Shown in pieces: positions 36,751 through 51,204 of a DNA stretch of 64,000 bases (the stretch's first letter is position 1; every line of letters starts with the position of its first letter). A model generated the notes under the pieces. It was given only the letters and a program-made list of their open reading frames with translations, did not search any database and was not told the DNA's origin. The position numbers and the translations under genes were made by a program. Source of the stretch: Rhizobium sp. Leaf371 (GTDB taxonomy: Bacteria > Pseudomonadota > Alphaproteobacteria > Rhizobiales > Rhizobiaceae); contig NZ_LMQB01000026.1 in the NCBI RefSeq assembly GCF_001424045.1, forward strand, positions 124,001 through 188,000, in the 5' to 3' direction.

Positions 36751-37044
36751 GCTCTCACTCCAGTCGGTCTCGTCTCGAACCCGGGCGCTTGGGAAGCCTT
36801 GGGGTGAGCGAGGATCACACAGCTTTCGGCCCGAGGGCCCGATCGTCAGAAGAACCACATGGTCCGGTGCTGTTTGCGCCGGCCTGCAGCCAGGGTTTGC
36901 CCGAACCCGCAGCATGGGCCCGGATCGTCGGGCCTCAGCGCATTGCGCCCGGTGGCATTCCCGGTGTTGTTGCGTGAGGTAACGGCTTTGCCCAACCTTT
37001 GCAAGGCTCTTGCGTTCCAATCCGAGCCCGGGAAAAGGAGGATT

Positions 37045-37471
37045 TTACTCCTCGCCGCCGCCGTCCCACCCGTCCTGCAACCGATCGATCTCGCGGCGCT
37101 CCCGCTTGGTCGGCCGGCCACTGCCCGGCTCCCGCGTCGCCTGCTCGAAAGGCGTCAGGCGTTCTCCGGGAACGGGCGCGGGCGTCAGGTCGTCATAGAG
37201 CCGTCGCGCTTCCTCATAGGGGCCGCGCCGGCTGCCGCCGCTGCGCATGCGCACCGTGACATCGCGACGGTCGAGCGACAACATCACTACATCGCCGGCC
37301 TTCACAGCATGCGAAGGCTGGGTGACGCGATGATCGTTGACGCGAACCTTCCCCCCTTCGATCGCCTTCTGGGCGATCGAAGGGGGACTTCGTCAGGCGC
37401 GTGAAGAAGAGCCACTTGTCGAGGCGCTGGCGGGAGGCGGCCTCTGCAGGCGTGATCTCCGGGTCGGCCAT
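37045..37471 (-). pseudogene. S4-domain RNA-binding protein (HslR/Hsp15-like), frameshifted
   Basis: The first 29 residues (MADPEITPAEAASRQRLDKW, then LFFTRLTKS) match the start of an S4 domain. The rest of the domain (AQKAIEGGKVRVNDHRV, then QPSHAVKAGDVVML) is encoded in another frame and runs to a normal basic C-terminus. From ATG to stop is 427 bases, one more than a multiple of three, so a single-base gain (or two-base loss) broke the gene. The break is inside a perfect inverted repeat at 37352-37386. HslR binds the stalled 50S subunit carrying nascent chain. The gene starts 15 bases after the helicase stop. It may be a true mutation or a sequencing error. Confidence 0.85.
37352..37386. 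repeat. Perfect 15-bp-arm inverted repeat at the S4-gene frameshift
   Basis: Arms CCCCCTTCGATCGCC and GGCGATCGAAGGGGG are separated by five bases. The arm nearer the gene start contains the frameshift. The expected in-frame sequence there (codons for KSRSIAQK) would give only an imperfect repeat. Confidence 0.9.
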
Positions 37472-37485
37472 GACGTCGCAGCTCC

Positions 37486-40400
37486 TTATTTCTTCATCTG
37501 CTCCTTCAGGGCAGCCAGCTTTGCAAAGGGCGAATCCGGATCGATCGGCTTGTCCTTGCGCGGCGGGCGGGCCTCGAAGGTCGCCGGTGCCTGCGATTTG
37601 CCGTGGCCGCCCGTGCCGGGCTTGCCACCCGGACGGTCGTTGCGATCCCGGCGATCGCCACGATCGCCCTTCTGATCGGAGCGAGCGCCCTCACCCGGCT
37701 TGCCGTCGCGGCCGCGATTGCGATCCGGACGTCCGCCGTCAGGACGACCACCGCCGGCCTTGCGCTCGCCGTCACGGTCGTCACGCCGGCCCTGCGGCCG
37801 GCCTTCGGACGGTGCAGCACCTTCACTCGGCGCCGAAGCGGCCCTGTCCTGGCCCGGACGGTTGCCGCCACGGCGATCGCCCGAACGGGCCTCGCGCTGG
37901 CCGGGACGACGGTCGCCCTGGCGCTGGTTGTCGCTGCGACCACCCGGACGCCAGAGAAGCACGGGCTTGACCTCGGCTTCGGCCACGTCGCCGGCAACGG
38001 CATCCGACGGTGCAGCATCCGCGGCAGCGGGCGCCGTCTCCGCAACAGGCTCGGACACAGGTGCGTTCTCGGCGGTCGGCTCGTCCGTCGTCACCGGCGC
38101 ATCCGAAGCCGCTTCGGGCTCCGCAGCCGGGGCCTGGACCTCAGCGTCGGCCGAAGCAGCCACATCGGCTGCCTCCTCGGTCGTCGCATCGGAGGTATCG
38201 TCCGCGGTGGCCGCATCGGCCATCGGAGCGGTTTCGCCCTCCGTGTCAGACGTCTCCGTCTCGGTCGTCTCGGTCTCAGACGTCTCGACCTTGGGCGCAG
38301 CAGCGCTCGTGGCCGGCGCCTGCGCGCCGAGGAACGCTGCAGCCTCTTCCGGCTTCACGCTGTCGGCGCGATAGCCGAGACCCTTCAGGATCTCTTCCAT
38401 ATCGTCGGGCGTCGCACCCAGGATCGACAGCATGGCGGTCGTGGTCGTGAACCGGCGACCGTCATAAGCGCCGTCCGGCCGCGCCGTCGTGCCCGGCTTC
38501 CACTGCAGAAGCGGACGAATGAGATCGGCGAGACGCTCGAGAATATCGATGCGCACCGCGCGCTTGCCGAGGAAGCGGAAACCGGCAAGCTTGTAGAACA
38601 TGCGCTCATAGGACGGATCGGTGACGATCGACGTGCGGCCGGCTGCGAGGACCGGAATAAGCTCGCCATAGCCAGGCTTGTCGAGACCATCGTTCTTCAG
38701 CGCCCAGAGCAGCGTGATGAGTTCGGCCGGGGCCGGCTTCAAAAGTGCGGGCATGAAGATGTGATAGGCGCCAAACCGGATGCCATGGCGGCGGATCGAG
38801 GCACGCGCCTCCTGATCGAGCGACTTCACGTCTTCGGCGACATCGCGCCGGAAGAGGACACCGAGGCTTTCGACCAGCTGGAAGGCGAGACCCTTGGCAA
38901 GACCCTGCAGGTCTTCGGCGCGCGAGAGGTCGTCGAGCGGCTTCAGCACGGTGGCGATATGGTGATTGACGTAGCGCTCGATGCGGGCAGCGACATGATC
39001 GCGCGCCGCACCCTGCAGCTGTTCATCCGCCAGCAGGATGACGCGGGGCCGCATGATGTGCTCGCTCGGGGCAAGCCGCGCGACGGGATCGCCGAGCCAG
39101 CGCACGAGGCCGTCCGACGACAGCGCCAGATCGGCATTGCCGGCAGCGTGCAGACGGGCGGCACGGGCTTCGAACTCCAGCGCCAGCGCCTTCTGGGCGG
39201 CACCCTGCACGGCGCGGGCATCCAGCCCGTCCGTCGTGGTGGCCAGCACGAACCGGAAACCGGTGAGTTGTCCCACATGATGTCCCTCTACGAAGACATC
39301 GCCATTCACACTGATTTCCGCTTCCAGCATCGCATTCTCTCTCAGCCGCTTCATGAGCACAGATGTCCTGCGGTCAACGAACCGTTTCGTCAACCGTTCA
39401 TGTAACGCGTCGGACAATCGATCTTCGATTTCCCGCGTCTTTTCCTGCCAGTGTGTCGGATCGGCAAGCCAGCCGGGCCGGTTCGACACATAGGTCCACG
39501 TCCTGATCTGCGCGATTCGCGCTGATAGCGTGTCGATTTCCCCGTCCGTATGGTCCGCCCGACGCACCTGCTCGGACATGAAATCCTCGTTGACGGTGCC
39601 GCGTCGCACAAGGTCGGAATAGATCGTGGCGATGAGATCGGCATGCTGCGCCGGCGCGATCCGCCGGTAGTCGGGAAGCGCGCAGGCCTCCCAGAGCTTT
39701 TCCACCGTCTGCGCATTCGTCGCCAGCGCCTTGACCTCGGGAAGCGTCGTCAGGAATTCGAGCGCCTGCTGATCGACCGCCGGAAGCGCCCGTGTCAGGC
39801 CGTGAACGGCCGGCGGCGCTTCCAGCGTCTTCTTCAGCGTCGTCACCGAGGTGAAGTCGAGCGCCTTGGAGCGCCATTGCAGCACGCGCACCGGATCGAA
39901 CTGGTGCTGCTCGATGCGGTGGACGAGTTCGTCATCGAAAGGCTCGACGCGCGACGTGACGCCGAACGTCCCGTCGCGCAGATGCCGCCCGGCTCGGCCC
40001 GCGATCTGGGCAAGCTCGCCCGGATTGAGGTTGCGGAACTGGTAGCCGTCATATTTGCGGTCCTGCGCGAAGGCGACATGATCGACGTCGAGATTGAGAC
40101 CCATGCCGATGGCATCGGTCGCCACCAGATATTCGACCTCGCCTTCCTGGTAGAGTGCGACCTGTGCATTGCGCGTGCGCGGGCTCAGCGCGCCGAGCAC
40201 GACGGCAGCGCCGCCCCGCTGGCGGCGGATGAGCTCCGCGATGGCATAGACCTCGTCGGCCGAGAAGGCGACGATGGCAGAGCGCTGCGGCAGCCGCGTG
40301 ATCTTCTTGGAGCCGGCATAGAGGAGCTGCGACAGGCGCGGACGCTCGACGATGGTGATGCCCGGCAGGAGATGCTCAAGGATCGGCCGCATGGTGGACG

Positions 40401-40794
40401 CGCCGAGCAGCAGCGTCTCCTGCCGCCCCCGCAAATGCATCAGCCGGTCGGTAAAGATGTGCCCACGCTCGAGATCGCCGGCCAGCTGCACCTCGTCGAT
40501 CGCGACGAAGGCGGCCTTCGTCTCGCGCGGCATCGCCTCGACGGTACAGACGGAATAGCGGGCGAGATGCGGGGTGATCTTCTCTTCGCCGGTGACGAGC
40601 GCGACATTGTGCGCGCCGACCCGCTCGACCACCCGCGTGTAGACTTCGCGGGCGAGAAGACGCAGCGGAAGACCGATGACACCGGTTTCATGCGCGACCA
40701 TGCGTTCGATTGCATAATGCGTCTTGCCGGTGTTGGTCGGGCCGAGGACCGCGATCACGCCGCGGCCACTCAAGATCATCGGTTGGTCAGGCAC
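37486..40794 (-). CDS. SUV3-like superfamily 2 RNA helicase with long disordered tail
   Basis: This 1102-residue protein resembles mitochondrial SUV3, the RNA-degradosome helicase, a type common in alphaproteobacteria. Motifs are Walker A GPTNTGKTHYA at residue 18, DEVQL in motif II, LGASTMRP, YLVATDAIGMGLNLD and QIAGRAGRH. A central helical region follows. From about residue 850 the chain is low-complexity: first acidic and T/E/A-rich, then a basic R/G/D-rich block (many RR, GDRR and GGRP units), ending in FAKLAALKEQMKK. The start is GTG 40794 or ATG 40779. It is the first gene of the group containing the S4 gene and fdxA, which fits an RNA-related operon. Confidence 0.88.
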   Translation of the reverse strand: MPDQPMILSGRGVIAVLGPTNTGKTHYAIERMVAHETGVIGLPLRLLAREVYTRVVERVGAHNVALVTGEEKITPHLARYSVCTVEAMPRETKAAFVAIDEVQLAGDLERGHIFTDRLMHLRGRQETLLLGASTMRPILEHLLPGITIVERPRLSQLLYAGSKKITRLPQRSAIVAFSADEVYAIAELIRRQRGGAAVVLGALSPRTRNAQVALYQEGEVEYLVATDAIGMGLNLDVDHVAFAQDRKYDGYQFRNLNPGELAQIAGRAGRHLRDGTFGVTSRVEPFDDELVHRIEQHQFDPVRVLQWRSKALDFTSVTTLKKTLEAPPAVHGLTRALPAVDQQALEFLTTLPEVKALATNAQTVEKLWEACALPDYRRIAPAQHADLIATIYSDLVRRGTVNEDFMSEQVRRADHTDGEIDTLSARIAQIRTWTYVSNRPGWLADPTHWQEKTREIEDRLSDALHERLTKRFVDRRTSVLMKRLRENAMLEAEISVNGDVFVEGHHVGQLTGFRFVLATTTDGLDARAVQGAAQKALALEFEARAARLHAAGNADLALSSDGLVRWLGDPVARLAPSEHIMRPRVILLADEQLQGAARDHVAARIERYVNHHIATVLKPLDDLSRAEDLQGLAKGLAFQLVESLGVLFRRDVAEDVKSLDQEARASIRRHGIRFGAYHIFMPALLKPAPAELITLLWALKNDGLDKPGYGELIPVLAAGRTSIVTDPSYERMFYKLAGFRFLGKRAVRIDILERLADLIRPLLQWKPGTTARPDGAYDGRRFTTTTAMLSILGATPDDMEEILKGLGYRADSVKPEEAAAFLGAQAPATSAAAPKVETSETETTETETSDTEGETAPMADAATADDTSDATTEEAADVAASADAEVQAPAAEPEAASDAPVTTDEPTAENAPVSEPVAETAPAAADAAPSDAVAGDVAEAEVKPVLLWRPGGRSDNQRQGDRRPGQREARSGDRRGGNRPGQDRAASAPSEGAAPSEGRPQGRRDDRDGERKAGGGRPDGGRPDRNRGRDGKPGEGARSDQKGDRGDRRDRNDRPGGKPGTGGHGKSQAPATFEARPPRKDKPIDPDSPFAKLAALKEQMKK

Positions 40795-47707: not shown

Positions 47708-49114
47708 TCATCGAATGAGCGAAGATTTTCCCCGCGGCAGATAGGTGCCGCGGGGCACGCCGACATCGGCAGGCTTGCCGTCCTCAACGATCGTCCGGCC
47801 GCGCAGGAGCACGCGGATGGGCCAGCCTTTCAGATCCAGCCCCTCGTAAGGTGTGTAATCGGCACCGTGGTGGAGGAGGTCGTTGCTGAGCGTCGTGCGC
47901 TTTTCCGGGTCCCAGAGCGCGAGGTCGGCATCCGAGCCGATGGCGATCGTGCCCTTGCGCGGGTAGAGCCCGTAGAGCTTGGCATGATTGGTGGCGGTGA
48001 CCGCGACGAAGGTGTTGAGGTCGATCCGGCCCTTCATCACGCCTTCGGAAAAGAGGATCGGAAGACGCGTGGCGACGCCCGGGATACCGTTGGGAATCCA
48101 GCGGAAATGCCGTTTGCCCTTCTCGTTCAGCTTGCCTTCCCCATCATCGAAGCGGAAGGGGCAATGATCCGAGGAGAAGAGGTCGAACACGCCCTGTTCG
48201 AGACCCTCCCAGCAGGCGGCCTGACTGGCCTTGTCGCGCGGCGGCGGCGAGCAGACATATTTTGCGCCCTCAAGTGCCTCCTGGTCCAGATCATCCGCCG
48301 TCAGCATCAGATATTGCGGGCAGGTCTCTCCGGCGATCTTCTGGCCGCGCTGGCGGGCCCGGCGGATTTCCTCCATCGCCTCGCGGTTGGAGACGTGGAC
48401 GATGACGATCGGCACATCGACGATTTCGGCCAGCGACAAAGCGCGGTGCGTCGCCTCGCGTTCCGCCGCCACCGGGCGGGTCGTCGCATGGAATTTCGGC
48501 GCAAGCTTGCCCTCCGCCTCGTGACGACCGATGAGGTAGCGGATGGCATCCTCGTTCTCGCAATGGACCATGACGAGTGCGCCGGTGCGCCGCGCGGTGT
48601 CGAGCGTGGCGAGAATCTCGTCGTCCCGCAGGCGCAGGCCCTCATAGGTCATGAAGACCTTCATCGAGGTATAGCCGTCCTCGACCAGTGCCGGCACTTC
48701 CTGACCGAGCACGTCGGGCGTCGGATCGGTGATGACCATGTGGAAGGAGACGTCCACATGGCATTTGTCGTCGGCCTTGGCATGGTAGATCTTCAGGGCT
48801 TCGCGCAGCGACTGGCCCTTTTCCTGCATGCAGAAGGCCATGACCGTCGTGTTGCCGCCAATGGCCGCCGAGCGGGTGCCGCTGTCGAAATCATCGGCCA
48901 TGACGATGCCGTCGCCGGAAGGCTGGTCGAGATGCACATGGCTGTCGATCCCGCCGGGAAGAACCAGAAGGCCCGTCGCATCGATCACCTCGTCGGCGTC
49001 CGTCAGCTCGGCCGCGAGCGCAGCGATGCAGCCGTTACGGATGCCGATATCGCTCTTGAACGTATCGGAGGCCGTCACCACCGTTCCGTGGCGGATCACC
49101 GTATCGAAGCGCAT
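47708..49114 (-). CDS. Dihydropyrimidinase / D-hydantoinase family amidohydrolase
   Basis: This 468-residue cyclic amidohydrolase has the metal motif GGIDSHVHLDQP near residue 55, the carboxylated-lysine motif SMKVFMTYEG, HCENED, VHVSNREA and FSSDHCPFRFDD. The family opens six- or five-membered cyclic amides such as dihydrouracil, hydantoins and allantoin-like rings. No pydA, carbamoylase or racemase gene accompanies it, which argues against ordinary pyrimidine breakdown. It is the last gene of an operon with an amino-acid importer and a PLP enzyme, so a 5-substituted hydantoin or a related amino-acid derivative is a reasonable guess. Confidence 0.87.
   Translation of the reverse strand: MRFDTVIRHGTVVTASDTFKSDIGIRNGCIAALAAELTDADEVIDATGLLVLPGGIDSHVHLDQPSGDGIVMADDFDSGTRSAAIGGNTTVMAFCMQEKGQSLREALKIYHAKADDKCHVDVSFHMVITDPTPDVLGQEVPALVEDGYTSMKVFMTYEGLRLRDDEILATLDTARRTGALVMVHCENEDAIRYLIGRHEAEGKLAPKFHATTRPVAAEREATHRALSLAEIVDVPIVIVHVSNREAMEEIRRARQRGQKIAGETCPQYLMLTADDLDQEALEGAKYVCSPPPRDKASQAACWEGLEQGVFDLFSSDHCPFRFDDGEGKLNEKGKRHFRWIPNGIPGVATRLPILFSEGVMKGRIDLNTFVAVTATNHAKLYGLYPRKGTIAIGSDADLALWDPEKRTTLSNDLLHHGADYTPYEGLDLKGWPIRVLLRGRTIVEDGKPADVGVPRGTYLPRGKSSLIR

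Positions 49115-50443: not shown

Positions 50444-51204
<761 letters not shown>

Follow-up and report, generated by a model that had tools for sequence, protein, structure and literature searches.

Genes and features at the locus

The window, by which we mean the whole 64,000-nucleotide stretch analysed (G000:C26:124001-188000), belongs to a contig of 223643 bases in a soil/plant rhizobium genome of 5.09 Mb, 29 contigs and 98.97% completeness. It contains a putative HslR-like gene with a conserved, RNA-binding S4 domain, encoded on the minus strand and interrupted by a change of reading frame. A gap of 14 bases separates this gene from a long open reading frame lying upstream on the same strand. 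The region is 75-88% identical at the DNA level to the corresponding region of six congeneric genomes. Its features are the following:

37486..40794, minus strand: upstream neighbour, a long open reading frame of 1102 aa, presumably a helicase
37471-37045, minus strand: S4-domain (HslR/Hsp15-like) gene, broken by a frame change
37214..37471, minus strand: first open frame of the S4-domain gene, from the ATG at 37471 to the stop at 37214 (85 aa); out of frame past the break
37045..37392, minus strand: second open frame of the same gene, running to the stop at 37045; its first ATG, GTG or TTG is a GTG at 37305
37372..37386, minus strand: upstream (5') arm of an inverted repeat in the gene sense; one extra base and one substitution compared with relatives; site of the frame break
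37367..37371, minus strand: loop of 5 bases, CAGAA in the gene sense
37352..37366, minus strand: downstream (3') arm in the gene sense, covering codons for A-I-E-G

The first open frame shares 26 of its 28 initial residues with congener G003, and its 85-aa translation matches nothing in Pfam or NCBIfam at E 0.001. The second frame matches PF01479 (S4) at domain positions 17-48 (E 2.4e-9; 37.2 bits against a cut-off of 22.8). When the whole genome was searched for this domain, only positions 16-48 were recovered here, versus positions 1-48 at this gene in all six congeners. For the gene to continue, the frame must shift by +1 at the break. The product would otherwise end at 85 aa with an incomplete S4 domain and would presumably be inactive. 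The best named protein matches of the second piece, at 91-95%, are from Ferranicluibacter rubi and Rhizobium sp. strains. Against NF007673 the second piece (113 aa) scores 28.5 bits, with a resemblance over residues 4-106; this is well below the equivalog cut-off of 148, the score being that of the broken gene's second piece. Judged by its sequence, the gene appears to be an S4-domain, HslR-like gene, of which the piece scanned falls short of the HslR equivalog cut-off.

A search of the genome's own DNA found the gene once, together with a self-match of the 35-base hairpin and a 30-base match at 90% on another contig; the idea of a spare second copy making the loss harmless was rejected on this basis. 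S4-domain places number seven in this genome and six or seven in each of the six congeners, the remaining ones here being located in open frames of 237-754 aa.

The inverted repeat at the frame break

The initial annotation had placed the break within a perfect repeat, and this proved correct: at 37352-37386, two 15-bp arms that are 100% complementary are separated by 5 nt, and the frame changes there. Folded as RNA, the hairpin has a predicted energy of -31.3 kcal/mol, and none of 200 shuffles was equally stable. The window has one pair of arms of at least 15 bp with a loop of 3-12, and 40 order-1 Markov copies of it have none. Twenty synonymous-codon shuffles of 123 gene models likewise gave 0 such arms; this control is little informative because the hairpin lies outside the broken gene's model, so that the unshuffled models hold 0 arms as well. 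Within 36900-37700, neither an Rfam match at E up to 0.1 nor a terminator-like site (a stem followed by a T-run) was found, and the hairpin was therefore rejected as a terminator or known RNA.

The 19-base core of the repeat, GATCGCCCAGAAGGCGATC (37360-37378), is present exactly in 14 of 394 family genomes belonging to four genera, in every case (14/14) inside the S4 gene by coordinates. With one mismatch permitted, it was matched in 77 of the 394. The 13 other genomes with the exact core have perfect arms of 9-11 bp. The core hairpin is imposed by coding, arising from the codons for SIAQKAIE, and the 15-bp hairpin grew from this short core.

Elsewhere in the window, a hairpin at 47730-47755, with 10-bp arms and a 6-base loop, is perfect only here among six genomes. 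It is located at the end of a 633-aa minus-strand open reading frame, which we take to be a dihydropyrimidinase, and encodes PRGTYLPRG. In one arm, four consecutive bases match the opposite arm; all four are different in four of the five congeners, and three of them in G006. The opposite arm has itself changed, and the site is a candidate for an in-frame template switch. A coding hairpin at 50593-50616, also with 10-bp arms and perfect only here among the six, differs by two bases from two congeners and by three from the other three.

The site in related genomes

The window was aligned with 18 rows, six from congeners and twelve from named loci, which are not all independent, at least four of the loci (L011, L012, L013 and L018) looking identical to four congener rows. 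All 18 rows have one base fewer in the upstream arm and encode S-R-S-[I/V/L]-A-Q-K there. The sequence SRSIAQK, predicted in the initial annotation for the intact frame, is encoded by relatives such as G003, and the description of the observed arm as an exact complement of the other arm with a length changed by one base agrees with the base gained relative to all aligned rows.

Arm lengths were compared in 16 genomes, all of them either congeners or carriers of the core, exact or nearly so. The perfect arms measure 15 bp in this genome, 11 in G118, 10 in G002, G273, G329, G289, G108, G179, G363 and G237, 9 in G001, G003, G005 and G006, 4 in G392 and 0 in G004. Upstream of the loop, the frame is open for at least 34 codons in all 15 others, versus 7 codons in this genome, which is the only one of the 16 to combine 15-bp arms with a lost frame. 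Comparison with related strains had been expected to reveal imperfect repeats, and the arms are indeed imperfect (0-11 bp) with open frames in 15 of 15; the same perfect palindrome in an intact gene, held in the initial annotation to count against its proposal, was not encountered, 0 of the 15 having 15-bp arms. A recurrent hotspot was rejected, since the frame is open in 13 of the 14 genomes that have the exact core.

The S4 gene is present in 375 of the 394 family genomes, and in 342 of the 356 good ones; 12 of the 19 genomes lacking it are of 1.6 Mb or less. Among the matches listed, every one except that of this genome begins by query residue 13, and these matches give no pattern of breakage across the family.

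Changes on this branch and the age of the break

Compared with relatives, the upstream arm carries one substitution and one extra base. The downstream arm region has changed as well, a point absent from the initial annotation: third-codon positions 37354, within the arm, and 37351, immediately beyond it, are G, versus C or T in congeners. Both changes are synonymous, to GGG codons, so that Gly-Gly is kept; the change at 37354 adds pairing, and that at 37351 does not. The downstream arm needs no special process because the branch of this genome is the longest of six (0.111) and GGC-to-GGG changes are numerous elsewhere on it, affecting 37 of the 1068 codons at which the other five genomes have GGC, versus 6-32 of about 1000 in each of those. 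Other C-to-G third-position changes are also common here (GCC-GCG 70, GTC-GTG 54, CTC-CTG 56). Adjacent GGG pairs account for 3 of the 348 Gly-Gly pairs in the gene models of this genome, the pair in the hairpin not being among those three.

For the 108 codons between loop and stop, which make up the downstream piece, dN/dS between this genome and five congeners is 0.054-0.102, versus 0.050-0.177 among the congeners. The upstream 28 codons give 0.081-0.161, versus 0-0.14 among congeners, and 68 shared genes give 0.066-0.087 (four pairs computed). Both pieces of the broken gene look constrained and show no drift, so that the break is either recent, or an artefact, or bypassed.

Quality of the assembly

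Assembly quality was surveyed in samples of 160 kb from this genome and of 165-200 kb from each of five congeners. Perfect hairpins number 17 here (10.6 per 100 kb), inside the range of the congeners (15-18; 8.3-10.9 per 100 kb). Five of the 17 are clearly longer than those of every aligned relative, versus 2-4 of 15-18 elsewhere, in a count that needs at least two aligned orthologues and in which one of the five (contig 85676) has hardly any aligned sequence. This excess of longer hairpins is in keeping with the longer branch.

A frame survey, in which a place was counted when backed by at least two query genomes, flagged 15 places here (covered by 13 queries), the most of the six genomes, versus 6 in G002, 4 in G003, 13 in G006, 10 in G005 and 4 in G001. 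Besides the S4 gene, 11 of these lie within the query's first 60 residues, where the mechanical start may precede the real one, two lie in one alignment of 60% identity and one, at contig 68661, is intergenic: one base is absent after the stop of a gene and before the ATG of the gene that follows, and no frame is broken. At contig 175921, two pieces match at more than 90% (16 and 235 aa); in G002 and G006 this query breaks as well, and there is no gap peculiar to this genome. At L040:13430-13501 (contig 97430-97501), the first residues of the gene model match in another frame (24 aa, 83%), and at contig 97501 the relatives differ mutually by indels of several lengths; this stretch may precede the true start of the gene. 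The flagged places that were followed up, apart from the S4 gene, look like gene-start or intergenic effects. A generally bad assembly was rejected, as the sampled DNA gives no sign of it in hairpin density or in the followed-up frame flags; the site itself is not thereby cleared.

Origin of the break

We favour a recent quasipalindrome-associated template-switch mutation as the event that broke the S4 gene, with a probability of roughly 0.58. The codons for SIAQKAIE supply a built-in hairpin, 9-10 bp long with 5 bases in the loop. The nascent strand would copy one arm during replication and then fold back on itself, or hop to the sister strand, copying 3 to 6 bases from the opposite arm before resuming on its proper template. 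The outer upstream arm would thereby be swapped for the exact complement of the downstream arm, with one base gained and the frame shifted. We infer that this happened in the living strain, in one step and by the fold-back route.

Simulated fold-back, which covered the starting forms TCC-CGC and TCC-CGT from a 9-bp core, yields the observed upstream arm from both alike. Of 64 settings tried with a GGC-type downstream arm, 1 does so, by copying 3 bases, skipping 2 and returning without microhomology; of 64 tried with the downstream arm in its present form, 4 do, by copying 3-6 bases and returning on up to 3 bases of microhomology. The template-switch footprint recognised in the initial annotation stands in part. 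The derived repeat is more perfect than those of the relatives (15 bp versus 0-11 bp in 15 genomes), the opposite arm could have supplied its new letters as one contiguous tract of 3-6 bases, and one fold-back reproduces the changed upstream arm. The event should leave the template arm unchanged; the region of that arm is distinct from congeners at the two third-codon positions described above, in whichever order the changes arose, and a single switch would have to be supplemented by an ordinary synonymous change or by a second event. The existence of a two-step route from the sister genome G001 also counts against a single switch.

ExoI and ExoVII curb quasipalindrome template-switch mutations in E. 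coli. The ExoVII large-subunit family is present in seven of seven congeneric genomes, including this one, and the ExoI C-terminal family was found in none of seven (this genome and six congeners), though it was found in the E. coli control. An exonuclease loss special to this genome was therefore rejected, both states being common to the congeners.

Two ordinary mutations could also have produced the arm, a substitution creating a C-run and then a one-base slippage, with the perfect hairpin as a by-product. Genome G001, sister to this one in the tree, weakens the case for a template switch because from its arm, TCC-CGT, a substitution plus one-base slippage in the C-run suffices; 5 of 504 substitution-plus-insertion paths from that form give the observed arm, and substitutions are plentiful on this branch. 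Only 1 of 504 paths does so from TCC-CGC (G002, G003), and 0 of 504 from TCG-CGC (G005, G006) or from TCG-CGT. The ancestral arm is ambiguous, with CGT in G001 and CGC in five genomes, G004 included, and the two-step route is therefore not negligible. It requires that two hits within 6 bases give the single outcome with arms of at least 15 bp among the 319 distinct outcomes of one substitution plus one insertion (counts, not likelihoods), and we consider it rather improbable. A further reading holds that the gene is not lost, a +1 ribosome slip at CCC-U, aided by the strong hairpin, yielding a full-length product. CCC-U is prone to +1 slips, and the zero frame reads AAG UCC CCC UUC exactly where the +1 shift is needed, beside a very stable RNA hairpin and in a gene whose two pieces look constrained. 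However, the slip site overlaps the hairpin with no spacer, the arrangement is found in 0 of the 15 other genomes, the product would carry Pro for an Arg present in all 18 aligned rows, and a recent break accounts for the constraint equally well. We regard this reading as very improbable, and the same small chance attaches to the idea that the new hairpin by CCC-U is an accidental +1 recoding signal, which would allow low-level readthrough and place an ordinary gene under frameshift regulation.

Alternatively, the break could be an error of base calling or assembly, made at a hairpin whose context includes GGC and a G-run; the gene would then be intact in the living strain. Inverted repeats and GGC are reported Illumina miscall contexts in the part of PMC3622629 relied on here, and the downstream arm differs by GGC to GGG. 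Both gene pieces evolve like an intact gene (dN/dS 0.054-0.161 versus congeners), the gene is kept in most family genomes, and the count of flagged frame places is the highest here (15 versus 4-13). On the other hand, the same part of that paper describes miscalls as enriched in one read direction, so that reads of the opposite direction should correct them, and GGC alone as an unreliable predictor of error-prone places (PMC3622629). Substitution errors alone cannot add the extra base of the upstream arm, C-to-G third-position changes are common at codons besides GGC, and the site does not lie at a contig end (161352 of 223643). The ordinary hairpin density and the nature of the 14 other flagged places also argue against an artefact, which we judge unlikely, if a serious contender.

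Significance and comparison with known systems

If the template switch is accepted, the locus provides a natural case with close relatives, a young loss of function in which conserved codons create a hairpin that then breaks the gene. This case alone changes no textbook. It does suggest that bacterial pseudogenes could be screened cheaply for breaks located at hairpins that have newly become perfect, with the caution that such hairpins are also where short reads can go wrong.

The gene has the S4 domain in common with Hsp15/HslR, the ribosome-associated heat-shock protein (NF007673, PF01479), and differs from it in its score, far under the NF007673 cut-off. As for the mutation, the mechanism is already known and the instance, probably a natural template-switch frameshift in an HslR-like gene, is new. 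Quasipalindrome template switching corresponds to the Ripley model, with the E. coli thyA hotspot and the lacZ QP reporters as its examples in the sections of PMC7202029 drawn upon here; its signature in E. coli, according to the same sections, is a repeat that becomes perfect or more so with the nascent strand as template. The present case resembles the E. coli mutations, as far as those sections describe them, in the passage from an imperfect to a perfect repeat, in a clustered change with a frameshift and in the short loop. It differs from the reporters in being a natural event in a single genome, deduced from relatives, and in that the gene was broken here, whereas the reporter was restored there. 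In yeast genes, homogenisation of inverted-repeat arms makes multinucleotide changes, as set out in the portion of PMC8604942 used here. The Saccharomyces cases in that portion are alike in being coding, in having derived perfect arms where relatives have imperfect ones and in showing a clustered change; they are multinucleotide substitutions that replace amino acids, whereas the present case is bacterial, with a change of length and a broken frame.
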